In this document: positions 37,990 to 57,764 of the stretch, piece after piece
How the letters are laid out: every line of letters begins with the position of its first letter
Position numbering within the stretch: position 1 is the first letter of the stretch
Assembly: GCF_025420585.1 (NCBI RefSeq)
Contig: NZ_JAOEGB010000009.1
Span: 1-64,000 of the forward strand
DNA: 64,000 bases
DNA from: Planotetraspora sp. A-T 1434
GTDB taxonomy: Bacteria > Actinomycetota > Actinomycetes > Streptosporangiales > Streptosporangiaceae
Direction of reading: 5' to 3'
The notes under the pieces: generated by a model
Database searches by the model: none
What the model was told of the DNA's origin: nothing
Seen by the model: only the letters and a program-made list of their open reading frames with translations
Translations under genes and position numbers: made by a program

Positions 37990-39561
37990 TCAGTACTTGG
38001 CGACGATGCTGCCGGACCAGAGGTGCGCGGCCGCCTTGTAGACGCCGTACAGCTCACCGTCGAAGTACGGCGAGATGCTGGTGTCGATGCGGTTGTTCTT
38101 GTCGGTGTCGGAGATGCCGATCGTCACACCGTTGAGGTAACCGAGGCGGCGGTTGCTGCTGTAGTTGAGCAGCCAGGACGACCCGATGGAGCCCTCACCG
38201 GTGAAGGACGACTTCACCCCGACGAGCTCCTCGCCCTTGATGGCCGCGGCCTTGGCGGCGAAGGTCTTGCCGTACGACCACTTGAGCGTGGCGCCGGAGT
38301 AGGCGTAGTTGCCGTCCGGGTGCGAGCCGCTCGGGTAGCCGAAGACGAAGACCGGCTTGCCGATCTTCTGGTTGTAGGCCAGGCCCTGCCCGCCGACGTT
38401 GTCGCCGAGGCGGCCGACGTCGGTGAAGGTCCGGACGTAGAACCGGGTGACCTTGAAGTCCAGGTCGTAGTTCGCCGCGAAGGTGCGGTAGTAGTACTTG
38501 TACTTCTTGGCCGGAGCCGGGGTCTCCGTCGGCGTGGCGCTGGGCGACGCCGTCGGGGTCACCGTCTCGGTCGGCTCCGAGATCTCCTCGACCTTGTAGT
38601 ACTCCTTCTTCCCGTCCTCGCTGAGGAACGGGACGTCCTTCGGAGCCTTCGTGGTGTGGATCTCGAACTGCTTGCTCTCGTCCTCGCTCACGTCCGCGGC
38701 CTTGGGGTCGACGCCCTTGGCCGTGAGGTAGGCGTCCTTCGTCACCTGGACGGTCTTGGACTCGGGGGTCCCGGCCGCCACCGGGTGCTTGGTGTCGAGG
38801 ACGGCGTCGATCTCGCCCTTGCCCTGGTGGGCCTTCGCCTCGGCGAGGGTCTCGTAGTACTTGACGTCCGGCTTCACAAGGCGGTCGTCGTTGGGGTACT
38901 TGTCGTACTCCTTGGCCGTGACCTCGCCGGCCCCGCTGTTGGGCAGGACACCGTTGTAGACGGTGACGAACGCGTAGTCGCGGTCGCCGTCCTCGTAGAC
39001 GTCGTAGTCGTAGTGGGTGAAGGCCTGCTTACCCACGTAGATGCCCCACGGGGTCTTGCCCTGGTAGTAACCCGGGATGAAGACCCAGTAGTCGAGCGTC
39101 TCGTCGTTCGACTCGGTGTCGTAGACGCAGTGCCCGGCCGTGGCGACCAGGTTGTGGTACTGCGACTGCACGGAGGTGGCGGTGCACCAGTGCGGCTCGC
39201 CGTCGGAGCCGAGGAAGAACACCTTGCCCGTGGTCTTGGGCAGGTTGACGTTCTTCGACTTGGAAGCCGACTTCTTCTCGTCGCCGATCGCCGGGACCAC
39301 GCCGGGCTTGCTGTCCGCGGAGGGACCGCCGGTCGAGACGTGCTTGGCGACGACCTTGGTCTCCACGTCGTACGGCGTGGCGCCGATCAGGTTGGCCTTG
39401 TGCTCGCCGTACCAGAACGCGGCGATCTGCCAGGCGGCCGTCTGGCTGGCCAGGGGGGTGCCGGCCACGTCACCGGAGGCCTGAGCCGGGGTGACGAGGG
39501 CCGAGCTGAGCAGGCCGGTGGCGACAACGCCGCCGAGAGGGAGAAGCAGACGCTTCTTCAT
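37990..39561 (-). CDS. AP1: secreted trypsin/V8-like protein with large insert, nucleophile lost
   Basis: 523 aa, exported. Signal peptide MKKRLLLPLGG to AQA-SG (cut near 28), then a conserved prosegment (VVAKHVSTGGPSADSKPGVVP). The His loop C-x17-C with ATAGHC (His144) and the Asp in GDRDYAFVTV (Asp195) are intact. The Ser motif is GEGSIGSSW, with Ile459 where AP2 has the nucleophile; the Ser-loop disulfide Cys are both Ser. The insert after VYNG is the longest of the family, about 178 residues, highly charged and ending in a Thr/Pro-rich linker (TPTASPSATPTETPAPA). A DTDKNNRID calcium-type loop is near the C-terminus. Probably a pseudoprotease. Confidence 0.9.
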   Translation of the reverse strand: MKKRLLLPLGGVVATGLLSSALVTPAQASGDVAGTPLASQTAAWQIAAFWYGEHKANLIGATPYDVETKVVAKHVSTGGPSADSKPGVVPAIGDEKKSASKSKNVNLPKTTGKVFFLGSDGEPHWCTATSVQSQYHNLVATAGHCVYDTESNDETLDYWVFIPGYYQGKTPWGIYVGKQAFTHYDYDVYEDGDRDYAFVTVYNGVLPNSGAGEVTAKEYDKYPNDDRLVKPDVKYYETLAEAKAHQGKGEIDAVLDTKHPVAAGTPESKTVQVTKDAYLTAKGVDPKAADVSEDESKQFEIHTTKAPKDVPFLSEDGKKEYYKVEEISEPTETVTPTASPSATPTETPAPAKKYKYYYRTFAANYDLDFKVTRFYVRTFTDVGRLGDNVGGQGLAYNQKIGKPVFVFGYPSGSHPDGNYAYSGATLKWSYGKTFAAKAAAIKGEELVGVKSSFTGEGSIGSSWLLNYSSNRRLGYLNGVTIGISDTDKNNRIDTSISPYFDGELYGVYKAAAHLWSGSIVAKY

Positions 39562-39585
39562 AGGGGGATGCTCCTCGCGCTGTCG

Positions 39586-39635
39586 TGGAACGCCTCTTGC
39601 GTCCCATCCGTCAGTAAAGGTTGATCGAAACCCTA
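39586..39635 (-). promoter_or_regulatory. AP1 promoter -10 and conserved leader hairpin
   Basis: TAGGGT -10 box (39635-39630) and, 24 bases on, TGGGACGC-AAGAG-GCGTTCCA (39606-39586), an 8-bp stem with a 5-base loop. The GAGGAG ribosome site follows before ATG 39561. Confidence 0.7.
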
Positions 39636-39892: not shown

Positions 39893-39916
39893 CCTGCCGC
39901 AAAGGCGCCAAATGCG

Positions 39917-39987: not shown

Positions 39988-41097
39988 TCAGTGCGACGGA
40001 ACCTCGGTCAGGCCGATGGTGCCGTCCGCGCGGACGAGCGAGCCGGACCAGAGGGGGTAGGCGGCCTTGTAGACGCCGTAGGTCTCGCCGTCGAAGTACG
40101 CCGAGGTGATCAGGTCGCTACGGTTGTTGTTGTCGGTGTCCCCGCCGAGGCTGGTGACGCCGTTGATGTAGCCGAGACGACGGGCGCTGCTGTACTTCAG
40201 GATCCAGGGGCCACCCGAGGACCCGCCGGTCATGGCGCACTTCAGGCCGATCTGCTCCTCGACCTTGACCGACGCCTCGCTGACCGGGCCGAAGGTCTTG
40301 CCGTAGCACCACTTCAGCTTCTCGCCGGTCCAGACGTAGTTGCCGTCGTCGTGCGGAGCTGCCGGGTAGCCGAACACGAAGACCGGCTGGCCGATCTTCT
40401 GGTTGTAGGCGAGGCCCTGACCGCCGACCTTGTTGCCCAGCGGGCCGAGGTCGACCAGCTTGTCGTTGATCTCGTCGTAGCCGATGCCGTTGTAGACCGT
40501 GACGAAGGAGTAGTCACGGTCCGCGTCCTCGTAGACGTCGAAGTCGTAGTGGGTGAAGGCCTGCTTGCCGATGTAGATGCCCCACGGCGCCTTGCCGTCG
40601 TAGTAACCGGGGATGAACACCCAGTCGTCCACGACCTGGCCGTTGCCGTCGATGTCGTAGACACAGTGCCCGGCCGTGGCGACCAGGTTGCGGTACTGCG
40701 ACTGGATCGAGGAGGCGGAGCAGGAGTAGACGCCGTCGCCGATGCTGAAGAACACCCGTCCGACGGTCTTCGGAAGGTTGACGTTCTTCGACTTGGCGGC
40801 CGTCTTCTTCTCGTCACCGATCGCCGGCACGATTCCCGGCTTGCCGTCCGCCGCCGGCGCTCCGGTGGAGACGTGCTTGGGCACGACCTTGTGCTCCAGG
40901 CCGTACGGGTCGGCGGCCTTGAGCTTCGCGCCACCACCGGTCAGCCAGAACTTGACGATCTTCGTTGCCTCCGAGGGGGAGGCGAGCTTCGCGGTGGCCG
41001 TGGTCGGTGCGGCCTGGGCCGGCACCGTCAGGGATGCGGCCGCGAGGCCGGCAGCGGCGATCGCGCCGCTGAGGGGGAGAAGCACGCGCTTCTTCAT
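39988..41097 (-). CDS. AP2: secreted trypsin-like serine protease, complete triad
   Basis: 369 aa and the most canonical array member. Signal peptide ends AQA-AP near 30. Triad: His144 (ATAGHC), Asp195 (ADRDYSFVTV), Ser294 (TGGSSGGPW). Disulfide pairs Cys126-Cys145 and Cys264-Cys287 present. The insert after VYNG is only about 14 residues, so AP2 likely shows the ancestral scaffold. Calcium-type loop DTDNNNRSD at 320-328. By family (S1B, V8/eMpr-like) an extracellular endopeptidase made as a proenzyme; specificity not predictable. ATG 41097 has GAGGAG upstream. Confidence 0.93.
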   Translation of the reverse strand: MKKRVLLPLSGAIAAAGLAAASLTVPAQAAPTTATAKLASPSEATKIVKFWLTGGGAKLKAADPYGLEHKVVPKHVSTGAPAADGKPGIVPAIGDEKKTAAKSKNVNLPKTVGRVFFSIGDGVYSCSASSIQSQYRNLVATAGHCVYDIDGNGQVVDDWVFIPGYYDGKAPWGIYIGKQAFTHYDFDVYEDADRDYSFVTVYNGIGYDEINDKLVDLGPLGNKVGGQGLAYNQKIGQPVFVFGYPAAPHDDGNYVWTGEKLKWCYGKTFGPVSEASVKVEEQIGLKCAMTGGSSGGPWILKYSSARRLGYINGVTSLGGDTDNNNRSDLITSAYFDGETYGVYKAAYPLWSGSLVRADGTIGLTEVPSH

Positions 41098-41123
41098 GAG
41101 GGGTTCGCTCCTCGCGCTGTACG

Positions 41124-41174
41124 TGGGACGCCACTTGCGCCCCATGCGTCAGTAAAGGGATGTCAAGGAACTTA
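41124..41174 (-). promoter_or_regulatory. AP2 promoter -10 and leader hairpin
   Basis: TAAGTT (41174-41169) and, 25 bases on, TGGGGCGC-AAGTG-GCGTCCCA (41144-41124). The stem keeps pairing although the upper A-U pair is G-U and the G-U pair is G-C compared with AP1. Confidence 0.7.
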
Positions 41175-41349: not shown

Positions 41350-42543
41350 TTAGAGAAGCGAGCGAACCGGCCTCGTGACCTCGTATGCCCCGTTGAACGG
41401 GACGGAGCCGGACCACAGGTGACGGGCCGCGCTGTAGACACCGTAGAGTTCGCCGTCGAAATAGGCCGAGACGCTCGTGTCGGCGCGGTCATCCCCGTCG
41501 GCGTCCGAAACGCCGAGAGTGAGACCGTTCAAGTAACCCAGGCGGCGGCTGTTCCGGTATCCGGCCAGCCACGCGGCTCCCGAGGCGTCCATGACCCCCG
41601 ACCGCACGCCGACCAGTTCCTCCGCCTTGACGGAGAGGTCCTGCGCCTTGAACGGCCTGCCGTACGACCATCTGAGGGCGCGGCCGGGCTGCTGCGCGTT
41701 CCCGGGAGGGAGCGTGCCGGTGGGGTACCCGAAGAGGAAAACGGGCCTGCCGACCTGCTGGTTGTAGGCGAGGCCCTGTCCGCCGACCCGATCGCCGAGG
41801 CGGCCGGCGTCGGTGAGCCTGACGCCGACGTACGTTGTCGCCGTGCGCGACCGGACCTTGTACTTCACGCCGCCGCTGAACGCGTTGTACTGGGCTTCGT
41901 TGAGAGACCTGACCCAGCTCGGCGCGAGCCCGTTGTACACGGTGACGAAGGCGTAGTCGCGGTCGAAGTCCCGGTATGTCGCGAAGTCGTGATGGGTGAA
42001 CGCCTGCTTGCCGACGTACACGCCGAAGGGCGTCCTCCGCTGGTAGTAGCCCGGAACGAACACCCAGTCCTTCAACGTCGCGGCCGGGGACGTCGCGGCG
42101 GATCCGATGTCGTAGACGCAGTGGCCGGCCGTGGCGACGAGGTTCCGGTAGTCGGCCTGGACGGAGGTGGCCGAGCACCAGTGCGGCCTGCCGTCCGCGC
42201 CGAGGAAGAACACCTTGCCGGTGGTCCTGGGCAGGTTGACGTTCTTGGATCGGGTCGCGGCCGTGTGCTCCGGGTCCCCGCCGGGGACGAGGCCGGGCCG
42301 CCCGTCGGGGGCCGGGCCGCCCGTGAAAGCACGCCTCGCCGCCATCCCGCTCTCCGGCAGGTACGGCGTGGCGGCGGCGAGGGCCTGGCCGTCGCCGTTC
42401 AGCCAATAGGCGAGCACCGACGCGACCTGCGCCTGCGTGGCGAGGACGTCGGTCGCGGTGATGTCGTAGGCGCGGGCGGGAGCCTGAACGGCGGCTCCGA
42501 GCAGCCCCACCGCCATCACACCTGTGATGAGGATGCGCAGCAA
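41350..42543 (-). CDS. AP3: secreted trypsin-like protease, divergent Ser motif
   Basis: 397 aa from TTG 42543 (GAGGAG upstream). Signal peptide ends ARA-YD. His141 and Asp196 intact; the Ser motif is MDASGAAW with Ser321 at the nucleophile position but Asp for the usual Gly and no Gly-Pro after it. The Ser-loop Cys are Ser (RWSYG, VRSGV). Insert about 41 residues, rich in Arg/Lys. Loop DADGDDRAD present. Activity is plausible but unproven. Most divergent N-terminus among AP1-AP8. Confidence 0.9.
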   Translation of the reverse strand: MLRILITGVMAVGLLGAAVQAPARAYDITATDVLATQAQVASVLAYWLNGDGQALAAATPYLPESGMAARRAFTGGPAPDGRPGLVPGGDPEHTAATRSKNVNLPRTTGKVFFLGADGRPHWCSATSVQADYRNLVATAGHCVYDIGSAATSPAATLKDWVFVPGYYQRRTPFGVYVGKQAFTHHDFATYRDFDRDYAFVTVYNGLAPSWVRSLNEAQYNAFSGGVKYKVRSRTATTYVGVRLTDAGRLGDRVGGQGLAYNQQVGRPVFLFGYPTGTLPPGNAQQPGRALRWSYGRPFKAQDLSVKAEELVGVRSGVMDASGAAWLAGYRNSRRLGYLNGLTLGVSDADGDDRADTSVSAYFDGELYGVYSAARHLWSGSVPFNGAYEVTRPVRSLL

Positions 42544-42564
42544 GAGAACTCCTCGCGCTGTACG

Positions 42565-42614
42565 TGGAACGTCTCCTGCGCCCCATCGTCAGTAAAGGGA
42601 TGCAAGGGAACATA
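42565..42614 (-). promoter_or_regulatory. AP3 promoter -10 and leader hairpin
   Basis: TATGTT (42614-42609) and TGGGGCGC-AGGAG-ACGTTCCA (42585-42565) with one mismatched pair next to the loop. The leader is short because translation starts at TTG 42543. Confidence 0.65.
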
Positions 42615-42767: not shown

Positions 42768-44012
42768 CTAGGCGATCGAGCCGGACCAGAGGTTCTTGGC
42801 CGCGCTGTAGACACCGTAGAGCTCGCCGTCGAAGTACGGGGAGACGCTGGTGTCGTAGCGGTCGTTGCCGTCGGTGTCCGAAACGGCGATGGTGACACCG
42901 TTCAGGTAGCCGAGACGACGGCCGTTGTTGTACTTCAGCAGCCAGGACGAACCGAGGGCGCCCTCACCGGTGAAGGACGACTTCACGCCCTGCAGCTCCT
43001 CGGCCTTGATCGCCGCGGCGGTCGCCTTGAAGGTCTTGCCGTACGACCACTTGAGGGTCTTGCCGGAGAAGGCGTGCTGCCCGTCCGGGTGCGACCCGCT
43101 CGGGTAACCGAAGACGAAGACCGGCGAGCCGATCTTCTGGTTGTAGGCGAGGCCCTGACCGCCGACGTTGTCACCGAGGCGACCGGCGTCCGTGAACTTG
43201 GCGACGTAGTACTTGGTGATCAGCTCTTCCTTGTTGCCGTCCTTGTCGACATCGTCGACGTCCTTGACCTGCTCCTTGTGGGTCCAGCTGTCGGCCACGT
43301 AGGCGTTCGGGGCGGCGGCGCGGTACTTGTTGTACGCGTCCTCGGAGACCTGGACGAAGGTGTGCTCGACGTCGCGCCCGTCGTGCGGGGCCTTGAGGCC
43401 GTTGTAGACGGTGACGAACGCGTAGTCGCGGTCCCCGTCCTCGTACACGTCGAAGTCGTAGTGGGTGAAGGCCTGCTTGCCGACGTAGATGCCCCACGGG
43501 GTCTTGCCCTGGTAGTAACCCGGGACGAACACCCAGTTCTTCAGCGTGGCGGCGTTGCTCTCCGTGTCGTAGACACAGTGGCCGGCGGTCGCGACGAGGT
43601 TGTGGTACGCGGACTGCACCGAGGTGGCGGTGCACCAGTGCGGCGTCTTGTCGTCGGCGCCCACGAAGAACACCTTGCCGGTGGTCTTGGGCAGGTTGAT
43701 GTTCTTCGACTTGGCGGCGGTCTTCTTCTCGTCGCCGATGGCCGGGACGATGCCGGGCTTGCTGTCGGGAGCCGGGCCGCCCTTGCTGATGTGCTTGGCG
43801 ACGACCTTGGTCTCCGCGTTGTACGGCGTGGCGTTGACCAGGTTGGCGCCGTCCTGCGCGTACCAGAACCCGGCGACGCCCCAGGCGGCGATGCCGGTCG
43901 AGGCCAGCGGGTCGCTGGCGACGTCACCGGAGGCCTGAGCGGGAGTGGTGAGACCGGCGGCCAGGAGGCCGGCGGCGGCGACGATGCCACCGAAGGCGAC
44001 AGTGCGCTTCAT
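42768..44012 (-). CDS. AP4: secreted trypsin-like pseudoprotease
   Basis: 414 aa. Signal peptide MKRTVAFGG to AQA-SG near 28; prosegment VVAKHISKGGPAPDSKPGIVP. His145 and Asp196 intact, but the Ser motif is GEGALGSSW with Leu353 at the nucleophile position and Ala before it; both Ser-loop Cys are Ser. The insert of about 71 residues carries DVDKDGNKEEL, itself a possible acidic metal-binding loop. Loop DTDGNDRYD near the C-terminus. Probably binds but cannot cleave peptides. ATG 44012 after GAGGAG. Confidence 0.9.
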   Translation of the reverse strand: MKRTVAFGGIVAAAGLLAAGLTTPAQASGDVASDPLASTGIAAWGVAGFWYAQDGANLVNATPYNAETKVVAKHISKGGPAPDSKPGIVPAIGDEKKTAAKSKNINLPKTTGKVFFVGADDKTPHWCTATSVQSAYHNLVATAGHCVYDTESNAATLKNWVFVPGYYQGKTPWGIYVGKQAFTHYDFDVYEDGDRDYAFVTVYNGLKAPHDGRDVEHTFVQVSEDAYNKYRAAAPNAYVADSWTHKEQVKDVDDVDKDGNKEELITKYYVAKFTDAGRLGDNVGGQGLAYNQKIGSPVFVFGYPSGSHPDGQHAFSGKTLKWSYGKTFKATAAAIKAEELQGVKSSFTGEGALGSSWLLKYNNGRRLGYLNGVTIAVSDTDGNDRYDTSVSPYFDGELYGVYSAAKNLWSGSIA

Positions 44013-44038
44013 GGGGGGAGACTCCTCTTGGTCTGTCG

Positions 44039-44089
44039 TGGTACGCCTCATGCGTCCCATGCGTCAGTAAAGGGATAGTCAGGACCATA
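44039..44089 (-). promoter_or_regulatory. AP4 promoter -10 and leader hairpin
   Basis: TATGGT (44089-44084) and TGGGACGC-ATGAG-GCGTACCA (44059-44039), seven of eight pairs formed (one G/A mismatch). Confidence 0.7.
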
Positions 44090-44532: not shown

Positions 44533-45813
44533 TTAGGCGATCGAGCCGGACCAGAGGTTCTTGGCCGCGCTGTAGACGCCGTACAGCTCACCGTCGAAGT
44601 ACGGGGAGATGCTGGTGTCGTAACGGTCGTTGCCGTCGGTGTCGGAGACGCCGATGGTGACACCGTTCAGGTAGCCGAGACGACGGCCGTTGCTGTACTT
44701 GAGCAGCCAGGACGAACCGAGGGCGCCCTCACCGGTGAAGGAGGACTTCACGGCCTGGAGCTCCTCGGCCTTGATGGAGGCCGCGGTCGCCTTGAAGGTC
44801 TTGCCGTAGCTCCACTTGAGGGTCTTGCCGGAGTAGGCGTAGTTGCCGTCCGGGTGCGACCCGCTCGGGTAGCCGAACACGAAGACCGGCTGGCCGATCT
44901 TCTGGTTGTAGGCCAGACCCTGCCCACCGACGTTGTCACCCAGGCGACCAGCGTCGACGAACTTCCAGACGAAGTAGTGCTGGAACTCCTCGGTCTTGTT
45001 CCCGTCCTTGTCGAAGTCGTTGTAGTCCGGACCGTACACGCTGGCGATGTCACCGATGAAGGTGTCGTAGCCCTTGTACTGGTCGTAGACGTCCTTCGTG
45101 ACCTCGGTCCAGCTGCCGATGTTCTCCCAGCCGGTCCCGCCGGTGGGCGACTTCTTCGGCGTGTCGTCGCCGTGCGGCACACCGTCGTGCGGGGCCTTCA
45201 GACCGTTGTACACGGTGACGAACGCGTAGTCGCGGTCGCCGTCCTCGTACACGTCGTAGTCGTAGTGGGTGAAGGCCTGCTTACCCACGTAGATGCCCCA
45301 CGGGGTCTTGCCCTGGTAGTAACCCGGGATGAAGACCCAGTTGTCGAGCGTGGCGGCGTTGGAGTCCGTGTCGTAGACACAGTGACCAGCGGTCGCGACC
45401 AGGTTGTGGTACGCGGACTGCACCGAGGTGGCCGAGCACCAGTGCGGCTTCTTGTCAGCGCCCTCGAAGAAGACCTTGCCCGTGGTCTTGGGCAGGTTGA
45501 TGTTCTTCGACTTGGCGGCGACCTTCTTCTCGTCACCGATGGCCGGCACGATGCCGGGCTTGCTGTCGGGAGCCGGGCCGCCCTTGCTGATGTGCTTGGC
45601 GACGACCTTGGTCTCGACGTTGTACGGCGTGGCGCCGATCAGGTTGGCCGCGTCGTTCGCGTACCAGTAGGCCACGATGTTCTTCGCGGCGATACCGGTC
45701 GAGGCGAGCGGCTTGCTGGCGACGTCACCCGCGGCCTGAGCCGGGGCGGCGAGGCCCGAGGCCAGGAGGCCGGCGGTGGCGACGAGGCCACCGAAGGCGA
45801 GAGTGCGCTTCAT
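44533..45813 (-). CDS. AP5: secreted trypsin-like pseudoprotease
   Basis: 426 aa. Signal peptide ends AQA-AG near 28. His144 and Asp195 present; Ser motif GEGALGSSW with Leu365 at the nucleophile position, Ser-loop Cys both Ser. The insert of about 84 residues has an HDGVPHGDDTPKKSP start, aromatic-rich middle and an FDKDGNKTEE acidic loop like that of AP4. The last ~410 coding bases are nearly identical to AP6-AP8. ATG 45813 after AAGGAG. Confidence 0.9.
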   Translation of the reverse strand: MKRTLAFGGLVATAGLLASGLAAPAQAAGDVASKPLASTGIAAKNIVAYWYANDAANLIGATPYNVETKVVAKHISKGGPAPDSKPGIVPAIGDEKKVAAKSKNINLPKTTGKVFFEGADKKPHWCSATSVQSAYHNLVATAGHCVYDTDSNAATLDNWVFIPGYYQGKTPWGIYVGKQAFTHYDYDVYEDGDRDYAFVTVYNGLKAPHDGVPHGDDTPKKSPTGGTGWENIGSWTEVTKDVYDQYKGYDTFIGDIASVYGPDYNDFDKDGNKTEEFQHYFVWKFVDAGRLGDNVGGQGLAYNQKIGQPVFVFGYPSGSHPDGNYAYSGKTLKWSYGKTFKATAASIKAEELQAVKSSFTGEGALGSSWLLKYSNGRRLGYLNGVTIGVSDTDGNDRYDTSISPYFDGELYGVYSAAKNLWSGSIA

Positions 45814-45835
45814 GGGGGAACTCCTTGGTCTGTCG

Positions 45836-45886
45836 TGAGACGCCTCATGCGTCCCATGCGTCAGGAAAGGGATAGCCAGGAAGATA
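45836..45886 (-). promoter_or_regulatory. AP5 promoter -10 and leader hairpin
   Basis: TATCTT (45886-45881) and TGGGACGC-ATGAG-GCGTCTCA (45856-45836), all eight pairs formed including one G-U. Confidence 0.7.
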
Positions 45887-47607: not shown

Positions 47608-47629
47608 GGGGGAGCTCCTTGCTCTGTCG

Positions 47630-48260: not shown

Positions 48261-49496
48261 CTAGTGCAGAGCGGGCGACTCGACCGGGAAGGCGATCGAG
48301 CCGGACCAGAGGTTCTTGGCCGCGCCGTAGACGCCGTAGAGCTCGCCGTCGAAGTACGGGGAGATGCTGGTGTCGTAACGGTCGTTGCCGTCGGTGTCGG
48401 AGACGCCGATGGTGACACCGTTCAGGTAGCCGAGACGACGGCCGTTGCTGTACTTGAGCAGCCACGCCGAGCCGAGGGCGCCCTCGCCGGTGAAGGAGGA
48501 CTTCACGGCCTGGAGCTCCTCGGCCTTGATGGAGGCCGCGGTCGCCTTGAAGGTCTTGCCGTAGCTCCACTTGAGGGTCTTGCCGGAGTAGGCGTAGTTG
48601 CCGTCCGGGTGCGACCCGCTCGGGTAGCCGAACACGAAGACCGGCTGGCCGATCTTCTGGTTGTAGGCCAGACCCTGCCCACCGACGTTGTCACCCAGGC
48701 GGCCGACGTCCACGAACTTCCAGACGAAGTAGTGCGTCTTGCCGTCCTTGACGACCTCGTGGCAGTAGTGCTTCTTGTCGCGGTACTCCTGGGGGAACTG
48801 CAGGTAGGTCGCCTTCGAGACCTCGTACCACTCGCCGGGAGCCGCCTCGGGGTCGGAGAGACCGTCGTGGCCGATCCCAAGACCGTTGTACACGGTGACG
48901 AACGCGTAGTCGCGGTCGCCGTCCTCGTACACGTCGAAGTCGTAGTGGGTGAAGGCCTGCTTACCCACGTAGATGCCCCACGGAGTCTTGCCCTGGTAGT
49001 AACCCGGGACGAAGACCCAGTTCTCCAGGGTGGTGGCGTTGCTCTCCGTGTCGTAGACACAGTGACCAGCGGTCGCGACCAGGTTGTGGTACGCGGACTG
49101 CACCGAGGTGGCGGTGCACCAGTGGGGGCGGCCGTCGGCGCCATCGAAGAACACCTTGCCCGTGGTCTTGGGCAGGTTGATGTTCTTGGACTTGGCGGCG
49201 ACCTTCTTCTCGTCGCCGATCGCCGGAACCACACCGGGCTTGCTGTCGGGAGCCGGGCCGCCCTTGCTGATGTGCTTGGCGACGACCTTGGTCTCGACGT
49301 CGTACGGCGTGGCGTTGATCAGGTTCGCGTACTCGTTGTTGTACCAGTAGGCAACCGTGGCCCAGGCCGCGATGCCGTTGGTCGCGAGAGCGTCGCTGGC
49401 GACGTCCTGAGGAGTGGCCTGAGCCGGGGCGGCGAGGCCCGCGGCCAGGAGGCCGGCGGTGGCGACAACGCCACCGAAGGCGAGAGTGCGCTTCAT
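48261..49496 (-). CDS. AP7: secreted trypsin-like pseudoprotease
   Basis: 411 aa. Signal peptide ends AQA-TP. His145 and Asp196 intact; Ser motif GEGALGSAW with Leu341 at the nucleophile position; Ser-loop Cys are Ser. The insert of about 59 residues contains a lone Cys (KKHYCHEVV), unusual because other inserts have none. C-terminus extended by nine residues (FPVESPALH) beyond the usual GSIA end. ATG 49496 after AAGGAG. Confidence 0.9.
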   Translation of the reverse strand: MKRTLAFGGVVATAGLLAAGLAAPAQATPQDVASDALATNGIAAWATVAYWYNNEYANLINATPYDVETKVVAKHISKGGPAPDSKPGVVPAIGDEKKVAAKSKNINLPKTTGKVFFDGADGRPHWCTATSVQSAYHNLVATAGHCVYDTESNATTLENWVFVPGYYQGKTPWGIYVGKQAFTHYDFDVYEDGDRDYAFVTVYNGLGIGHDGLSDPEAAPGEWYEVSKATYLQFPQEYRDKKHYCHEVVKDGKTHYFVWKFVDVGRLGDNVGGQGLAYNQKIGQPVFVFGYPSGSHPDGNYAYSGKTLKWSYGKTFKATAASIKAEELQAVKSSFTGEGALGSAWLLKYSNGRRLGYLNGVTIGVSDTDGNDRYDTSISPYFDGELYGVYGAAKNLWSGSIAFPVESPALH

Positions 49497-49518
49497 GGGG
49501 GAACTCCTTGGTCTGTCG

Positions 49519-49568
49519 TGGGACGCCTCATGCGCCCCATGCGTCAGTAAAGGGATAGGCAGAAGATA
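49519..49568 (-). promoter_or_regulatory. AP7 promoter -10 and leader hairpin
   Basis: TATCTT (49568-49563) and TGGGGCGC-ATGAG-GCGTCCCA (49539-49519), eight pairs. Confidence 0.7.
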
Positions 49569-50032: not shown

Positions 50033-51334
50033 TTACGCGGGGGGCGCCGACGGCGTCGCCGAGGGAGAGGGCGTCGCCGAGGGAGAGGGCGAGGGCGAGG
50101 GCGGGTTGGCCGGGGTTCCGGTCGGCGTGGCGATCGAGCCGGACCAGAGGTTCTTGGCCGCACCGTAGACGCCGTAGAGCTCGCCGTCGAAGTACGGGGA
50201 GATGCTGGTGTCGTAACGGTCGTTGCCGTCGGTGTCGGAGACGCCGATGGTGACACCGTTCAGGTAGCCGAGACGACGGCCGTTGCTGTACTTCAGCAGC
50301 CACGCGGAACCGAGGGCGCCCTCGCCGGTGAAGGAGGACTTCACGGCCTGGAGCTCCTCGGCCTTGATGGAGGCAGCGGTCGCCTTGAAGGTCTTGCCGT
50401 AGCTCCACTTGAGGGTCTTGCCGGAGTAGGCGTAGTTGCCGTCCGGGTGAGACCCGCTCGGGTAGCCGAAGACGAAGACCGGCTGGCCGATCTTCTGGTT
50501 GTAGGCCAGACCCTGCCCACCGACGTTGTCACCCAGGCGACCCGCGTCCTCGAAGGCCCAGATGTAGAAGTGCCGCTGCGCCTTGTCGGTGAAGAGGAGC
50601 TTGGTCTGGTCCTTGAGCCAGCCACGGTCTCCGAGGTACTTCTTGTACGAGTGGAAGGTCTTCCAGTCGGTCTCGACCCAGTGGCCGTAGACGGCGTCGC
50701 CGTCGTGGGTGCCCTTGAGGCCGTTGTAGACGGTGACGAACGCGTAGTCGCGGTCGCCGTCCTCGTACACGTCGTAGTCGTAGTGCGTGAAGGCCTGCTT
50801 GCCGACGTAGATGCCCCACGGGGTCTTGCCCTGGTAGTAACCCGGGATGAACACCCAGTAGTCCAGGGTCGCGGCGTTCGACTCGGTGTCGTACACGCAG
50901 TGTCCGGCCGTGGCGACGAGGTTGTGGTACGCCGACTGCACCGAGGTGGCGGTGCACCAGTGCGGGCGGCCGTCGGAGCCCACGAAGAACACCTTGCCCG
51001 TGGTCTTGGGCAGGTTGATGTTCTTCGACTTGGCCGCGACCTTCTTCTCGTCGCCGATCGCCGGAACCACACCGGGCTTGCTGTCGGGAGCCGGGCCGCC
51101 CTTGCTGATGTGCTTGGCGACGACCTTCGTCTCGACGTCGTACGGCGTGGCGTTGATCAGGTTCGCCGCACCCTGGGCCAGCCAGAACGCCGTGACGTTC
51201 CAGGCCGCGATGCCGCTGTCGGCAAGGGGCTTGCTGGCGACGTCCTGCGGCGTGGCCTGAGCCGGGGCGGCGAGGCCCGCGGCCAGGAGGCCGGCGGTGG
51301 CGACGATGCCACCGAAGGCGAGAGCGCGCTTCAT
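50033..51334 (-). CDS. AP8: secreted trypsin-like pseudoprotease with Pro/Ser tail
   Basis: 433 aa. Signal peptide ends AQA-TP. His145 and Asp196 intact; Ser motif GEGALGSAW with Leu341 at the nucleophile position; Ser-loop Cys are Ser. Insert about 59 residues (HDGDAVYGHWVETDW and a Lys/Tyr-rich middle). After GSIA it has a 31-residue Pro/Ser/Thr tail (TPTGTPANPPSPSPSPS...), unique in the array and typical of an extracellular linker or wall-spanning stalk. ATG 51334 after AAGGAG. Confidence 0.9.
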   Translation of the reverse strand: MKRALAFGGIVATAGLLAAGLAAPAQATPQDVASKPLADSGIAAWNVTAFWLAQGAANLINATPYDVETKVVAKHISKGGPAPDSKPGVVPAIGDEKKVAAKSKNINLPKTTGKVFFVGSDGRPHWCTATSVQSAYHNLVATAGHCVYDTESNAATLDYWVFIPGYYQGKTPWGIYVGKQAFTHYDYDVYEDGDRDYAFVTVYNGLKGTHDGDAVYGHWVETDWKTFHSYKKYLGDRGWLKDQTKLLFTDKAQRHFYIWAFEDAGRLGDNVGGQGLAYNQKIGQPVFVFGYPSGSHPDGNYAYSGKTLKWSYGKTFKATAASIKAEELQAVKSSFTGEGALGSAWLLKYSNGRRLGYLNGVTIGVSDTDGNDRYDTSISPYFDGELYGVYGAAKNLWSGSIATPTGTPANPPSPSPSPSATPSPSATPSAPPA

Positions 51335-51356
51335 GGGGGAACTCCTTGGTCTGTCG

Positions 51357-51406
51357 TGGGACGCCTCATGCGCCCCATGCGTCAGGAAAGGGATGCGCAG
51401 ACTCTA
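51357..51406 (-). promoter_or_regulatory. AP8 promoter -10 and leader hairpin
   Basis: TAGAGT (51406-51401) and TGGGGCGC-ATGAG-GCGTCCCA (51377-51357), identical stem to AP7. Confidence 0.7.
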
Positions 51407-51625: not shown

Positions 51626-51931
51626 GCCCTGAAGGGGAACCAGTGCGGTTCCTGTCGCCCACGGCGCCTCGATCGTGATGGCTCGGCCCATCGTGCACGA
51701 CTGTGTTCGGCCGCTGCGCAAGCCGTCTGAACAGTGTTTTCGTAGTCATCCCGCCACTCTGTCGATCACTGGGCGCCCCGACGCCTGTCGCCGGCCCCGT
51801 GGGGACGCGGCGCTTCCATGCCTCCAGGGCGCACCGGCTCATTGCGGCGTAAGGAAAGAGCCCCGGAGCTTTGAAACCCCTGTCGCCGTTCGTCTCTGAA
51901 CGGGCAGCTATCGGGCAACGTCGTTTATCGG

Positions 51932-53087
51932 ATGCCTTTGGTTTACACGAAAGTGCCGCATCTCTTTGGCATGGAATGCCAAAAGCAAGGCTCCGGCGGG
52001 CCCCACAGCCCTTCGCTGGCCGTACCGCGTGCCACTCCCGGGCGACGGCTCGGAACGCCAGGCACTGGCGGCGGGCTCGTCATCTTCGGCCTGGACGAGG
52101 AAGACGGCTTCGCTCTGACGGGCAAGCTCTTCGCTGGGTGCAGCGTAATACTCGGACGCGAATCAGATTCGCTGGGGGGCACAGCCGTGACGAACCCGGA
52201 TATCCCGTCGAGGCGGTCCGTGAGCTTCTCTCGAACGCGCTGGTCCATCGGGATCTCGGACCGCACGCTCTGACCGAGCCGATCACTCTCAAACTGGACC
52301 AGAGCCAGCTCGTCTTGAGCAATCCCGGCGGCCTCTGGGGACTGACGTCAGATCGGCTCGGCAAGACCGGCGTGACCTCCACCAGGAACGCTTGGCTGGT
52401 CCGCATCTGCCAGAACGTCCGTTTCGGCAAGGACTACCGGGTCGTAGAGGCGTTGGCGTCAGGGATCCCGAGGATCCTTTCCAGCTTGCATCAGGCCGGC
52501 ATGGTGCCGCCCCGCTTCCATGACCAGGGGATCAGGTTCACGGTGCGCGTTCCGGACCATGTCTTGCTGGCGGAAGAGGACCTGCACTGGCTCGCCGGCA
52601 TTTCGAAAGCAGCCAGGTTCACTGACCGGCAGCGGCACGCTCTGGTGGCCATGCGGCACGGTGCATCTGGACGAACAAGAGCCTGCGAGAAGCGTTTCCC
52701 ATGGACTCCCGAGAGGCGACGGCCACGTTGTCGGCTCTTGTCCGGGTTGGCGTGGCGGAAGCCATCGGCGCGGGCGGCGGACGCGCGTATCGCCTTGCTG
52801 ACGCACTTGACCGGCGAGCGGATGCCGCTGAGCACGTGCCCGAGCGGGCGAGGTCCACTTCGAAGCCGCGGATCCGGGGTGCCCGGGCAGCCAACGCCGC
52901 CGCCGTGCGTGAGGTGCTGGAGAGAGGGCCCGCGACCCTGGCGGAGCTGGCCACTGCCACGGCGCTGTCGTCCCGCCAGGTCCATTACGCGCTCCAGTTG
53001 CTCCGCGAGCAGGGAAGCGTCGTCATCGCGGGAGGGCGGGGGACCTACACGGTCTATCGCCTCACCGGCAACGCCGCGCAGGCCTGA
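51932..53087 (+). pseudogene. decayed AlbA_2 / ATPase / winged-helix regulator
   Basis: Three pieces of one family lie in different frames. 52040-52110 encodes GTPGTGGGLVIFGLDEEDGFALTG (AlbA_2-type nucleotide-binding domain). 52190-52610, frame of 51871, encodes VEAVRELLSNALVHRDLGPH and LSNPGGLWG (GHKL-like ATPase). 52701-53087 encodes a C-terminal winged helix with ATLAELATATALSSRQVHYALQLL. At least two frameshifts are needed to join them, so the gene is non-functional unless the sequence has errors. The N-terminal end is not clear. Confidence 0.72.
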
Positions 53088-53096
53088 TCACGACGG

Positions 53097-53128
53097 CGCA
53101 GGGCCCGGCTGATGGCGGCCGGGCCCTG
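53097..53128. terminator. terminator between pseudogene and AP9
   Basis: GCAGGGCCCGGC and GCCGGGCCCTGC pair around GATGGCG-type loop; between convergent genes. Confidence 0.8.
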
Positions 53129-53152
53129 CGGGGATCAAGAGGATCTAACGGT

Positions 53153-54367
53153 CTAGGCGATGGAGCCCGACCAGAGGTTGGCGGCGTGCTTGTAGATGTC
53201 GTAGAGCTCGCCGTCGAAGTACGGCGACAGGCTGGTGTCGATGCGCTGGTTGTCGTCGGTGTCCGACACCGCGATGGTGAGACCGTTCAGGTAGCCCTTG
53301 CGGGTCGGGTTGCTGTACTTGTACAGCCATGCCGAGCCTGAGGCGCCCTCACCGGTGAAGGGGCACTTCACGGCCAGCAGCTCCTGGGCCTTGATGTCGG
53401 ACGACGCGGCCGCCCAGGTCTTGCCGTAGCACCACTTCTGGGTCTTGCCGGTGAAGGCGTAGTTGCCGTCCGGGTGCGACCCGCTGGGGTAGCCGAAGAC
53501 GTAGACGTTGCCGCCCTTCTTCTGGTTGTACGCGAGGCCCTGGCCGCCGACGTTGTCGCCGAGACGGCCGCCGTCGACGAACTTCCAGATGAAGTACTCG
53601 TCGTCGGCCGTACCGGGGCCGTGCAGGTCCTTCTTGGTGAACTGGTTGACCGCGGGGGTGTAGGTGCCGTAGCTGCGGTACTTGTCGTACTGCGCCTTGG
53701 AGACCTTCTTCCAGTCGCCGGGGAGGGCGCCGCCGTCGTGCGGGGCCTTCAGAGCGTTGTAGACGGTGACGAAGGCGTAGTCACGGTCGAAGTCCTCGTA
53801 GACGTCGAAGTCGTAGTGCGTGAACGCCTGCTTGCCGACGTAGATGCCCCACGGGGTCTTGCCCTGGTAGTAACCCGGCACGAAGACCCAGTACTTGAAC
53901 GTGGCCGCGTTGGACTCGGTGTCGTAGACGCAGTGCCCGGCCGTGGCGACCAGGTTGCGGTAGTGCGACTGGAGCGAGGTCGCGGTGCACCAGTGGGGCT
54001 TCTCGTCGGCGTCGAGGAAGAACACCTTGCCGGTGGTCTTCGGCAGGTTGACGTTCTTGGAGAGGCCGCTCGGCTTGCCGCCGATGGGCTCGACCTTGCC
54101 TGGCTTGCCGTCGGCGGCCGGGCCGCCCTTGGAGACGTGCTTGGCCACGACCTGGGTCTCGACCGTGTACGGCGTGGCCGCGATCAGGTTGGCCTTGCTC
54201 TCGGCGTACCAGAAGGCGGCGACGTTCCAGGCCGCGATGCCGCTGCCGGCCAGGGGGTCGGAGGCGGTGTCGGGAGCGGCGGAAGCGGCGGAGGGGGCGA
54301 TCAGGGCGGAGCCGAGGAGGCCGGCCGCGATGGCGGGGAGGATGAGGTGCTTGGCCCGGGTGTGCAT
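53153..54367 (-). CDS. AP9: secreted trypsin-like serine protease, Ser and disulfides kept
   Basis: 404 aa. Signal peptide MHTRAKHLILPAIAAG to ASA-AP near 30. His145, Asp196 and Ser343 (GEGASGSAW, V8-like G-x-S-G-S) are all present, and both Ser-loop Cys remain (KWCYGK, VKCPF). Insert about 61 residues, Lys/Tyr/Asp-rich. Loop DTDDNQRID. It lacks the conserved array leader and palindrome, so it is regulated differently; TAAGGAG precedes ATG 54367. Confidence 0.92.
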   Translation of the reverse strand: MHTRAKHLILPAIAAGLLGSALIAPSAASAAPDTASDPLAGSGIAAWNVAAFWYAESKANLIAATPYTVETQVVAKHVSKGGPAADGKPGKVEPIGGKPSGLSKNVNLPKTTGKVFFLDADEKPHWCTATSLQSHYRNLVATAGHCVYDTESNAATFKYWVFVPGYYQGKTPWGIYVGKQAFTHYDFDVYEDFDRDYAFVTVYNALKAPHDGGALPGDWKKVSKAQYDKYRSYGTYTPAVNQFTKKDLHGPGTADDEYFIWKFVDGGRLGDNVGGQGLAYNQKKGGNVYVFGYPSGSHPDGNYAFTGKTQKWCYGKTWAAASSDIKAQELLAVKCPFTGEGASGSAWLYKYSNPTRKGYLNGLTIAVSDTDDNQRIDTSLSPYFDGELYDIYKHAANLWSGSIA

Positions 54368-54959: not shown

Positions 54960-54995
54960 GTCTGCACAGTACTGCAGGTCCGCACACGTCAAAGT

Positions 54996-55019
54996 TGTAC
55001 ATTTTTGTAAATACGTACA
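54996..55019. promoter_or_regulatory. inverted repeat operator before MFS gene
   Basis: TGTAC (54996-55000) and GTACA (55015-55019) flank an A/T-rich ATTTTTGTAAATAC core, unusual in this G+C-rich DNA. It sits in the 70-bp region between the phd-like and MFS genes and could bind a repressor of either. Confidence 0.5.
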
Positions 55020-55030
55020 TACTCGCGATC

Positions 55031-56260
55031 ATGAGTGAGCCGCTGCGCCGCCACCGTGACTTCGTCCGGCTCTGGAGCGCCACCTTGGCCTCGACCCTGG
55101 GTGTCCAGGTCGCCTCCGTCGCCTACCCCCTGCTGGCGCTGGAACTGACCGGTTCAGCCGTCCAGGCAGGGCTGATCGGCTCCGCCGCAATGGCCGCCGG
55201 CATCGCGCTGCGTCTGCCGGCGGGCGCCCTGGTCGACCGGTGGGATCGGAGGCGCACGATGCTGAGCTGCGATCTCGTGCGAGCCGCTCTCGCCGCCGCC
55301 ACCGTCGCCGGTTCGCTGCTCGGGTTGCTCGACTGGCGGATGCTGCTGGCCGCGGCTGTGATCAGCGCCGCATGCGGGGTGTTCTTCCACCCGGCGGAGA
55401 CGGCGATGCTACGGCGCGTGGTTCCCGCCGAACACCTGCCTCAGGCCCTCGCGCACAACGAGGCACGCCAGTACGGAGCGTCGATCGCCGGTCCTCCGCT
55501 GGGTGGCCTGCTGTTCAACCTTGGGAGAACTGTCCCTCTTGCCGGAGAGCTCCTGGCCTATCTGGTGTCCTTCGCCGCGGTCCTGGCCATCCAATCCCCG
55601 ACGCCCGCCACCGCGGTCGCGGACCGGTCGCGCACTCTCCTGCGCGACATCGCCGAGGGCCTGCGCTGGACCTGGCGGCAGCGGTTCCTGCGCGTCCTGC
55701 TGGTGACGGCCGCGGGCTTCAGCCTGGTGTTCTCCGCGCTGACCCTCACCGCGATCGTCGCCGCCCGGCAGAGCGGCGCGGCACCGGCCGATGTCGGCCT
55801 CATGATGGCGATCTCCGGCGCCGGAGGACTGCTGGGCGCGCTGGCCGCTGCACGGCTGCAGCGGCGCAACCCGGCGTCGGTCGTCCTGGCGATGTTCTGG
55901 GTGGCCGCCGCGGCCATCCCCGCGATGGCCGTCCATCCCACCGCCTGGGCCATCGGGCCGCTGCTGGCCGCGGCGTTCTTCCTGGCCCCGGCGGCCAACG
56001 CGATCTTGTACACCTACCAGATGACCATCACGCCCGACCACTTGCAGGGCCGAGTGATCAGCAGCCTCGCCCTCTTCGGCAGCGCGGTGACCCCGGTCGG
56101 GCCGCTCGCCTCGGGACTGATCCTGGACCGCTGGGGTGTGACGGCCGCCCTGCTGTCGATCGCGTCCGTCATGGCGGTCGTGGCTTTGGGCGCCACGTTG
56201 AGCCCCACCATCCGGCATCTGCCCCCGCTGGCCGAGGCCGAGGCCGCGGCCGCACGTTGA
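55031..56260 (+). CDS. MFS transporter
   Basis: 409 aa, about 12 hydrophobic segments. The loop 2-3 signature GALVDRWDRRRTML near 65-78 and DHLQGRVISSLALFGSAVTPVGPLASG near 340-365 are typical of the MFS_3 (enterobactin exporter-like) group. Probably a drug or siderophore exporter; substrate unknown. ATG 55031 chosen over an upstream in-frame ATG at 54995, which would precede the operator. Confidence 0.88.
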   Translation: MSEPLRRHRDFVRLWSATLASTLGVQVASVAYPLLALELTGSAVQAGLIGSAAMAAGIALRLPAGALVDRWDRRRTMLSCDLVRAALAAATVAGSLLGLLDWRMLLAAAVISAACGVFFHPAETAMLRRVVPAEHLPQALAHNEARQYGASIAGPPLGGLLFNLGRTVPLAGELLAYLVSFAAVLAIQSPTPATAVADRSRTLLRDIAEGLRWTWRQRFLRVLLVTAAGFSLVFSALTLTAIVAARQSGAAPADVGLMMAISGAGGLLGALAAARLQRRNPASVVLAMFWVAAAAIPAMAVHPTAWAIGPLLAAAFFLAPAANAILYTYQMTITPDHLQGRVISSLALFGSAVTPVGPLASGLILDRWGVTAALLSIASVMAVVALGATLSPTIRHLPPLAEAEAAAAR

Positions 56261-56585
56261 GCGATGCCCTCCGCGCCATCCTGGATCACAGGGCAGTCCT
56301 CGATGGCGAGAAGGGTACGGTCGCCGTCGGCGCGCGCAGGCCCTTGTCAACCGCCCGTTTTCGGATGGCGGGTGACGCGGCTGCCGCACACGCGGTAGTT
56401 CGTGCCGGCCCGCACAGGCGACGCCAAGGAGGCCGCGGCGGCGACCGGCGAGGCGGTATGGCCAGGGGTACGCCGGGCAGCAAGAAGGCCCGGCCGATGA
56501 CGACCGGGCCCTCTGCTGGGGGGTGCCGAGACGACCGAACGAGCAAGCCGTGGGACGGCTATGCGATCAAGTCGTATACGGGTGA
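56261..56585. other. gap between MFS gene and AP10
   Basis: 325 bp; only the AP10 terminator hairpin (56487-56510) is recognisable. Confidence 0.5.
56487..56510 (-). terminator. AP10 terminator
   Basis: GGCCCGG and CCGGGCC pair around a 10-base loop; on the minus strand CTTCTTGC follows. Confidence 0.6.
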
Positions 56586-57764
56586 CTAGGCGATGGAGCC
56601 GGACCAGACGTTCGCGGCGGCCTTGTAGACGCCGTACAGCTCGCCGTCGAAGTACGGGGAGACGCTGGTGTCGATGCGCTTGTTGCCGTTGGTGTCGGCG
56701 ACGCCGCTGGTGACGCCGTTGAGGTAGCCGAGGCGGCGGCTGTTCTTGTAGTTGAGCAGCCAGGCGGAGCCCGAGGAGCCCTCACCGGTGAAGGAGGACT
56801 TCACGCCGACCAGTTCCTCGGCCTTGACCGCGGGGGCCTTGGCCGCGAACGTCTTGCCGTACGACCACTTGAGGGTCTTGCCGGAGAAGGCGTAGTTGCC
56901 GTCCGGGTGCGACCCGCTCGGGTAGCCGAACACGTAGACGGACTTGCCGAGCTTCTGGTTGTAGGCCAGACCCTGCCCGCCGACGTTGTCACCGAGCCGG
57001 CCGAGGTCGACGAACTTGAGGACGTAGTACTTGCCGTCCTTGGACTTGCGGATGTGGTGGTCGTACTTGTCGTAGGTCGCCTTGTCGACCTGCTTCCAGT
57101 CCCATTCCGCGGTGTCGCGCAGGTTGGTGCCCGGACCGGCCTTGATGCCGTTGTAGACGGTCACGAACGCGTAGTCGCGGTCGCCGTCCTCGTACACGTC
57201 GAAGTCGTAGTGCGTGAAGGCCTGCTTGCCGACGTAGATGCCCCAGGGCGCCTTGCCCTGGTAGTAACCCGGGATGAAGACCCAGCGGTCGAGGGTGGCG
57301 GCGTTGCTGTCGGTGTCGTAGACGCAGTGCCCGGCCGTGGCGACCAGGTTGCGGTAGTGCGCCTGGACCGAGGTGGCGGTGCACCAGTGCGGCCGGCCGT
57401 CGGCGCCCCGGAAGAAGACCTTGCCGGTCGTGCGGGGCAGGTTGACGTTCTTGGACGAGCCGCCGGACTTCTTCTCGTCACCGATCGCGGGGACGACGCC
57501 GGGCTTGCTGTCGGCCGAGGGTCCACCGGTGGAGATGTGCTTGGCGACGACCTGGGTCTCGTACGGCGTCGCGTTGACGAGGTTGGCCGCCTTCTGGTTC
57601 AGCCAGTAGGCGACCACGTTCTTGGCGGCGATTCCGCTGGTGGCCAGCGGGTCCGAGGCCGTGTCACCGGCGGCCTGAGCGGGCGCTGCCAGGGTGGCCC
57701 CGATGAGGCCGGCGGCGGCGACGCCCCCGATGGGGAGGATCAGGCGCTTGACTCGGGTGTTCAT
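56586..57764 (-). CDS. AP10: secreted trypsin-like serine protease, disulfide lost
   Basis: 392 aa. Signal peptide ends AQA-AG near 32. His146, Asp197 and Ser331 (GEGSSGSAW) complete the triad, but both Ser-loop Cys are Ser (KWSYG, VKSSF), as in the pseudoproteases; this is an intermediate state. Insert about 48 residues (AGPGTNLRDTAEWDW, KYDHHIRKSKDGK). Loop DTNGNKRID. ATG 57764 after AGGAG; carries the array leader and palindrome module. Confidence 0.92.
   Translation of the reverse strand: MNTRVKRLILPIGGVAAAGLIGATLAAPAQAAGDTASDPLATSGIAAKNVVAYWLNQKAANLVNATPYETQVVAKHISTGGPSADSKPGVVPAIGDEKKSGGSSKNVNLPRTTGKVFFRGADGRPHWCTATSVQAHYRNLVATAGHCVYDTDSNAATLDRWVFIPGYYQGKAPWGIYVGKQAFTHYDFDVYEDGDRDYAFVTVYNGIKAGPGTNLRDTAEWDWKQVDKATYDKYDHHIRKSKDGKYYVLKFVDLGRLGDNVGGQGLAYNQKLGKSVYVFGYPSGSHPDGNYAFSGKTLKWSYGKTFAAKAPAVKAEELVGVKSSFTGEGSSGSAWLLNYKNSRRLGYLNGVTSGVADTNGNKRIDTSVSPYFDGELYGVYKAAANVWSGSIA

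Follow-up and report, generated by a model that had tools for sequence, protein, structure and literature searches.

A tandem array of chymotrypsin-fold proteins in Planotetraspora, half of them lacking the catalytic serine, with insert types shared between genera and a predicted common leader hairpin

Serine protease folds can be retained for roles other than catalysis. In the available part of its description, the trypsin-like pseudoprotease MamO of magnetotactic bacteria is retained for metal binding instead of catalysis (PMC4794232), and the scabies mite SMIPP-S proteins are presented, in the portion of the source at hand, as inactive serine protease paralogs of which two tested members work through a region other than the residual active site (PMC4031079). 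The Chp/Pat-1 proteins of Clavibacter are secreted putative serine proteases, and the authors of the excerpted account think it unlikely that ChpG is a pseudoprotease (PMC11290698). The clustered protocadherins are tandem paralogs in which, according to the section of the paper available, regional gene conversion keeps the 3' region more than 99% identical, and EC1-EC3 are diverse and orthologous (PMC1852091). Here we describe an array of protease-like genes in a stretch of 64,000 nucleotides from the actinobacterium Planotetraspora sp. A-T 1434, referred to below as the window (bases 1-64000 of contig C126 of a 7.78-Mb draft genome, the sole genome of its genus in our comparison). It contains 12 tandem minus-strand open reading frames (ORFs) of one family, c1 to c12, spanning positions 37990-61279. 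We consider it fairly probable that these genes, arranged in tandem in a soil actinobacterium, form a co-regulated repertoire of secreted proteins with a chymotrypsin fold, largely catalytically dead binders whose inserts set the binding partner.

The original prediction had described ten such proteins, each with a different insert between conserved flanks. All ten are confirmed as minus-strand ORFs with flanks of the VTVYNG...GRLGDNVGG type (c1-c10, within 37990-58010), but the family has 12 members, as c11 (58174-59304) and c12 (60113-61237) lie beyond the span then considered. With profile boundaries, the inserts of c1 to c12 measure 178, 13, 41, 71, 84, 63, 59, 59, 61, 48, 19 and 19 residues; nine of the ten lengths given earlier match exactly, the insert of c2 having 13 residues rather than 14. 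The N-termini of the copies look like signal peptides when judged by eye. Beyond the array, the same genome holds two more family copies (contigs C44 and C2) and distant relatives on contig C56. A short family-gene remnant, two fragments in a 111-aa frame, lies at C50:346605-346814.

The AlphaFold2 (AF2) model of c6, built from a 79-sequence alignment, has a predicted local distance difference test score (pLDDT) of 83.3 and a predicted template modelling score (pTM) of 0.85. Residues 79-387 form a double beta-barrel chymotrypsin/trypsin (S1-like) fold, and the closest structures in the PDB are 3wy8 (Z 28.2, root-mean-square deviation 2.3, 214 of 219 residues aligned) and 3cp7 (Z 28.1, deviation 2.2, 214 residues). 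The copies other than c6 and c1 are assigned to this fold by homology only. Among the nine copies scanned against PF00089 (those other than c5, c7 and c8), c2 alone scores above the gathering threshold of 20.6 (21.8); c11 reaches 20.4, c1, c3, c4, c6, c10 and c12 score 12.6-17.7, and c9 has no match.

The insert follows the strand that bears the catalytic Asp, where 3wy8 has three residues (its aligned halves end at 99 and restart at 103) and 3cp7 at most nine. Throughout the family, the spacing at this site is about 11-19 residues when the insert is short and reaches 260 when it is long. The alignments and the c6 model place the insertion after the strand with the Asp and before the second barrel. 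By the topology of the fold, this point, after the Asp102 strand, would be an inter-barrel linker that faces away from the cleft, so that the insert is more likely to be an exosite than a part of the active-site cleft. In the model, the c6 insert (about residues 192-254) is an ordered subdomain of helices (198-207, 211-217 and 225-234) and a hairpin (strands 239-242 and 245-248), with a pLDDT of 79-92 in 10-residue blocks. The c1 model has a lower pLDDT (68.4), with most of its second barrel below about 55. The c1 insert has no Pfam match, and a Foldseek search with the c1 model returned nothing but protease chains at E <= 0.001. An apparent resemblance of this insert to designer repeat proteins in the PDB (E down to 4.4e-6) was rejected, as no stretch passes alone and composition effects are probable. 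Pro/Ser/Thr-rich stretches occur within the c1 insert and in the C-terminal tail of c8 (Pro/Ser-rich, near 50033-50131, minus strand).

Half of the window copies lack the catalytic Ser. It is replaced by Ile in c1 (37990-39561; 178-aa insert at 38416-38949, part of it Pro/Thr-rich) and by Leu in c4 (42768-44012; 71-aa insert at 43185-43397), c5 (44533-45813; 84 aa, 44950-45201), c6 (46348-47607; 63 aa, 46765-46953), c7 (48261-49496; 59 aa, 48705-48881) and c8 (50033-51334; 59 aa, 50543-50719). In these dead copies, the GGP that follows the Ser is altered to GSS or GSA. The His-Asp-Ser triad is complete in the other six. In c2 (39988-41097; 13-aa insert at 40447-40485) it is accompanied by GSSGGPW, and c11 (58174-59304; 19 aa, 58588-58644; start codon uncertain) and c12 (60113-61237; 19 aa, 60521-60577) likewise have short inserts. 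The Ser of the divergent c3 (41350-42543; 41 aa, 41806-41928; start codon uncertain) sits in an altered loop without the second Cys pair; c9 (53153-54367; 61 aa, 53570-53752) has both Ser and that Cys pair, and c10 (56586-57764; 48 aa, 57003-57146) has Ser without it.

The same pattern extends across the family. We collected 574 ORFs with both flanks, dropped 43 partial sequences and one with odd boundaries, and collapsed the remaining 530 to 368; exclusion of the two distant members on contig C56 left 366, and removal of four exact duplicates left 362 distinct members. The 66 genome labels represented include two genomes twice (G096 is M. catharanthi and G172 is H. solisilvae). Written as the residues at the three catalytic positions, the triads of the 366 members are HDS (142), HDD (80), HDL (42), SNL (29), HDI (19), HNL (16) and SDL (11), with all others at six or fewer each. 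In most of the members that are not HDS, Ser has given way to Asp, Leu, Ile, Ala, Asn, Gly or Thr, and some members have also lost His and Asp. At least one triad residue is missing from 222 of the 362 distinct members, which, in the window, applies to c1 and c4-c8; with a protease fold, degenerate catalytic residues and retention across species, these members are pseudoproteases in the usual meaning of the term. The second Cys pair is absent from all 124 Leu/Ile members. In Nonomuraea, Asp occupies the Ser position in 64 of 116 members (for example at loci L078, L082, L084, L086, L096 and L108), and these members usually keep GGP and the cysteines, an inactivation unlike the Leu/Ile form of the Microbispora relatives.

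These observations bear on the simplest alternative, namely that the genes are ordinary protease paralogs, all of them active, with the insert as a substrate-specificity loop. The complete triads of six window copies fit this idea, as does the fact that the closest folds, Anisep (3wy8) and AL20 (3cp7), are named serine proteases. We nevertheless judge it unlikely, given the Ile or Leu at the Ser position of c1 and c4-c8, the additional loss of His and Asp in other genera (the 29 SNL members), the altered GGP of the dead copies and an insertion point that follows the Asp strand. Ser loss goes with insert length: Ser is retained by 37 of 243 members with long inserts (at least 30 residues in all member counts) and by 108 of 119 with short ones. 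A flank tree of 194 of the 366 members requires 11 or more changes of Ser state. A causal role of the insert in Ser loss was considered and set aside. The raw association is strong, but only four supported independent contrasts are available on the tree and they decide nothing. The inactivation is therefore not attributed to the insertion, which counts against our main reading.

The original prediction regarded the inserts as hypervariable, with little common sequence beyond an HDG at the start. HDG is present in six of the ten inserts (c4-c9) and absent from the other four. Six of the nine window inserts longer than 30 aa have a counterpart of at least 50% identity in another species. The c5 insert is 80% identical in G060 (Microtetraspora by genus code) and 79% in G038, that of c6 83% in Microbispora triticiradicis, that of c9 74% in Microtetraspora glauca, and that of c10 81% in Microbispora oryzae and M. 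corallina; the best cross-species values for c7 and c3 are about 62% and 51%. When 246 inserts of at least 30 residues were joined into types by single linkage at 50% insert identity, 23 groups of two or more rows resulted, and 21 of these occur in more than one genome; the two discounted groups are one confined to a single species and one made of the same genome twice. The low resemblance between inserts holds for pairwise comparison of sequences, but not for profiles: 40 of 210 insert-profile pairs exceed 90% hhalign probability and 56 exceed 50% (154 do not), against reversed controls in which none exceeds a probability of 2.0 and 0 of 210 exceed 90%. Three unlinked blocs are apparent among the best 45 of the 210 pairs: inserts of 48-84 residues, long Microbispora and c1-like inserts, and long Nonomuraea inserts. 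Judged from these alignments and profiles, the insert types are lineages of an inserted subdomain that are shared between genera and are often mutually homologous, and the description as hypervariable does not stand. Conservation of inserts between strains, which the original prediction itself had named as contrary evidence, is largely what is observed.

Selection on the insert was examined as well. The nonsynonymous divergence (dN) of the inserts is about 2-5 times that of the flanks in most types (about equal in types 7 and 8), and a crude dN exceeds the synonymous divergence (dS) in 1090 of 2016 same-type pairs, although dS looks saturated at a G+C content at third codon positions (GC3) of about 96%. 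The closest same-type pairs, in types 7, 8, 11 and 19, give insert dN/dS values of 0.29-0.45, and positive selection is therefore not shown.

The faster divergence of the inserts and the at least 11 changes of Ser state could also be taken as neutral bloat, with an insert that is a loop free of constraint and with dead copies in decay. Such decay seems improbable to us in view of the c10-type inserts, which are 69-81% identical in their three best other-species matches, the confidently predicted c6 fold, the dN/dS values of the closest types, and the open frames and retained leaders of the window copies. At the opposite extreme, the inserts might be reshuffled among strains from silent cassettes or by a diversity-generating element, as in rapid antigenic or phase-type variation. 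Every window copy does have a different insert, and those of c1 (best 43-44%), c4 (37%) and c8 (34%) have no counterpart of at least 50% identity elsewhere, which also counts against a purely shared set of insert lineages. However, insert types recur across genera, tblastn with c6, the only copy searched genome-wide for donor cassettes, lists no insert-only match in its own genome, and it is the C-terminal flank rather than the insert that is homogenised. We therefore hold this type of variation to be highly improbable.

That homogenisation is most evident in c5-c8. Their DNA is 97-99% identical in the C flanks (44539-44949 in c5, 46354-46764 in c6, 48294-48704 in c7 and 50132-50542 in c8), 89-94% in the N flanks and 53-55% in the inserts, and outside the genes identity is 52-64% over the 250 nt upstream and 45-73% downstream; it falls to background at the insert and again past the stop codon. 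A recent whole-gene duplication would not leave the C flanks alike and the inserts and surrounding DNA different. The earlier description of almost identical flanks applies best to c4-c8 (N flanks 89-94%, C flanks 91-99% in DNA); pairs that involve c1 or c10 are lower (83-92%), and the flanks of c2, c3 and c9 are clearly more divergent by protein identity.

In a C-flank DNA tree of 45 hand-picked rows, c4-c8 group together (starred, 95), as do, irrespective of insert type, several copies from other genomes or genera. This tree rejects insert types 6, 15 and 5 as clades in the approximately unbiased (AU) test (p 2.4e-5, 3.1e-32 and 4.5e-5, respectively), and types 6 and 15 are not rejected by the N-flank tree (p 0.20 and 0.22), suggesting that N-terminal halves track insert type better than C-terminal halves do. 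Of 385 different-type paralog pairs, 19 have a synonymous-codon identity of at least 93% in the C flank and three in the N flank; the C-flank pairs come from six genomes (that of the window, G138, G095, G137, M. glauca and G038). The C flanks of c5-c8 have a synonymous-codon identity of 94-98%, as compared with a mean of 80.0% and a maximum of 94.6% for 506 same-type pairs between label genera. These comparisons show that in some genomes the C flank has been homogenised against the ancestry of the insert, as in regional gene conversion (or unequal exchange). The constant-scaffold, variable-module plan put forward originally is thus supported more strongly than had been claimed, because in the trees it is the C flank that becomes uniform within some genomes, and the inserts there remain distinct.

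Several results count against extensive conversion. In the N-flank tree, too, a clade of type 5 is rejected (p 6.5e-4). A different-type paralog is closer than every same-type ortholog in no more than 25 of 135 C flanks and 11 of 135 N flanks (25 and 11 of 131 without the doubled genome). Six of the 25 cases are copies from the genome of the window, and some of the margins are tiny; the corresponding insert result (0/135) was not used, being circular because the types were defined by the insert. GC-biased conversion was tried as a cause and rejected: GC3 is lower, not higher, in the c4-c8 C flanks (92.7 against 96.0) and so gives no sign of it. Because the C-flank paralog outranks the ortholog in only 25 of 135 copies, conversion appears to be local and recurrent rather than total. 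The remaining 110 of 135 C flanks, in which no different-type paralog comes closer than the best same-type ortholog, together with the family-wide conservation of the scaffold, are what purifying selection alone would produce, without any conversion. That explanation is quite improbable in the light of the incongruent trees, the AU rejections and a synonymous-codon identity in the c5-c8 C flanks well above the 80.0% mean between genera. The N-terminal barrel of c6 (46954-47334, minus strand) has a second loop that is 14 residues longer and is also present in the M. triticiradicis, M. glauca and G060 counterparts, which fits an N half and insert that often travel together; two other members of the c6 insert type that were compared lack it.

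A leader of about 59 nt that ends near the ribosome-binding site is common to c1-c8 (39566-39624, 41103-41162, 42544-42602, 44019-44077, 45816-45874, 47610-47668, 49499-49557 and 51337-51395, in order) and c10 (57764-57822). The upstream DNA outside the leader is near background among the copies compared. The leader pattern CCCTTTMCTGACGNATGGGRCGYA, allowing up to 3 mismatches, has 10 sites in the genome of the window, each of them upstream of a family gene (0 for the backward control), and is present in all 12 relatives searched (controls, 0). A family ORF lies downstream at 28 of 28 sites checked in 20 regions that were chosen mainly for lying away from arrays. In 364 members the upstream DNA is long enough for such a search, and here the motif, with at most 5 mismatches, precedes 167 of 207 long-insert members without Ser and 21 of 38 with Ser, and 25 of 109 short-insert members with Ser and 5 of 10 without (reversed control, 0). 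A covariance model finds 11 sites in the 7.78-Mb genome, 11 of 11 before family genes by position, and 29 sites in six of eight further genomes; all 40 loci in these seven genomes have a same-strand family ORF at the leader (25 plus, 15 minus). The two genomes without a model match, G224 and G021, have only weak family matches (best E 2e-7). By these searches, the leader is shown to occur, in the genomes searched, only before genes that we assign to this family by sequence; absences are not exhaustive, because only the best first-look candidates were scored (150 per genome for the RNA model).

We predict that the leader forms an RNA hairpin whose stem base, in many copies, pairs with the ribosome-binding site. 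When eight window leaders were folded, five (c1, c5, c6, c7 and c8) paired the CCUU of the invariant box with the AAGG or GAGG of the Shine-Dalgarno sequence, with an 8-bp stem capping the hairpin. For a comparative view, we aligned 81 of 82 diverse picks (one left out) from 173 distinct leaders. A 17-pair structure is satisfied in 92.6% of cells, against 91.0% in shuffled alignments (0 of 500 as high) and 27.7-60.5% in slid versions, and both sides have changed in 8 of the 17 pairs, against a shuffled mean of 3.3 (0 of 500 as high), although related sequences can exceed such shuffles. Other results weigh against the predicted hairpin. The shuffle z-scores of the eight single-sequence folds are weak (-0.6 to -1.7), the simple CCUU/AAGG closure is missing from three of the eight, RNAalifold alone retains only five apical pairs, and the motif-based collection of leaders itself favours an invariant box. 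The covariance model finds the leader before 10 of the 12 window genes, with a weak match at c12 (61237-61293, 29.7 bits) and none at c9 or c11. It is possible, though not what we would expect, that the leader acts instead as DNA, as the palindrome of an operator or promoter. A dimeric repressor would be well served by an inverted repeat that is nearly perfect, and the modest z-scores would then be unsurprising, as would the zero Rfam matches at the gathering threshold in window positions 36000-64000. An operator would not explain why the outer arms pair with the Shine-Dalgarno sequence, why G-U pairs are frequent or why 8 of 17 pairs have changed on both sides.

Taken together, an exchangeable scaffold, a private module, the death of half of the window copies and a mostly common leader are most simply explained by a set of binding proteins. 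The dead copies would act by binding, with the inserted subdomain carrying partner specificity and the barrels serving as a secretable, exchangeable scaffold; the specificity role that the original prediction gave to the insert is plausible on these grounds. The hairpin would control translation of the whole set as one programme, and the Ser-bearing c2, c11 and c12 (perhaps also c9 and c10), along with a protease inhibitor encoded beside them, may supply the catalytic side of this extracellular system.

This inhibitor, of the SSI type (59394-59978, plus strand; PF00720, E 3.6e-21), is encoded between c11 and c12, and its ORF cluster was found again in 14 of the 19 genomes' array regions compared. 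It could restrain the Ser-bearing copies, or it could be a target bound by the dead ones. Of the same 19 regions, 14 also have the cluster of the malic enzyme ORF (assigned, like the inhibitor, by Pfam) and 17 that of the ORF at 62900-63868, and the position of the array is common to relatives. The array is broken by two genes on the plus strand, opposite to its own: the ORF at 51871-53112, which matches HATPase_c_4 (RecG C-terminal-like), and an MFS transporter gene at 54995-56260. The relatives identified by name are Microbispora, Microtetraspora, Acrocarpospora, Herbidospora, Nonomuraea and Thermoactinospora. Matches at E <= 1e-40 occur in 122 of 297 genomes sampled across the order and in 24 of 62 genera, all 122 within Streptosporangiaceae.

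With 362 distinct members and 21 multi-genome insert types, the family is an extensive natural series on the possible conversion of an enzyme scaffold into binding proteins: some copies have an insert and Ser (c9 and c10), others have lost Ser, and others the whole triad. It also offers a bacterial case in which to dissect regional gene conversion beside a preserved module. Because the candidate regulatory RNA has so far been seen only before this one gene family, the family's physiological trigger is experimentally approachable. We recognised no paper on the family or its leader in the openly licensed PMC literature, going by titles and abstract starts of the best matches. The parts are known separately, in MamO, the mite paralogs and the protocadherins; their combination was not found in the openly licensed literature searched.

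By fold, the closest described proteins are Anisep of Arthrobacter nicotinovorans (3wy8) and AL20 (3cp7), which share the chymotrypsin fold of the c6 model (Z 28 each), match the family by sequence profile (E 1.3e-24 and 1.7e-22, respectively) and have the landmarks GKVFF, TAGHC and TGGxSGGPW in common with it. Both retain the GG-S-SGGPW loop, and they differ from the family in having three or at most nine residues at the insert site, where its members have about 11-19 (short) to 260 (long). MamO is likewise a bacterial pseudoprotease, but the available part of its description includes no tandem repertoire with inserted modules or regional conversion (PMC4794232). The SMIPP-S proteins are likewise an inactive paralog family; they belong to an animal parasite, and the portion of that report at hand mentions no inserted module (PMC4031079). 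The Chp/Pat-1 proteins are actinobacterial secreted S1-like paralogs, a likeness drawn by description only from the excerpted account (PMC11290698). In evolutionary pattern, a close parallel is to the clustered protocadherins, although these are vertebrate adhesion proteins, unrelated in kind (PMC1852091), and a recognition role in our array is putative. Like them, the array combines a homogenised constant part with an orthologous variable part in tandem, and so it works alike without being a member. We tentatively raise the further possibility that the array is a bacterial counterpart of the clustered protocadherins: Streptosporangiaceae would maintain some ten secreted proteases, most of them dead, conversion would even out half of the scaffold and spare the recognition module, and a private RNA hairpin over the ribosome-binding site would switch the whole set on or off together.

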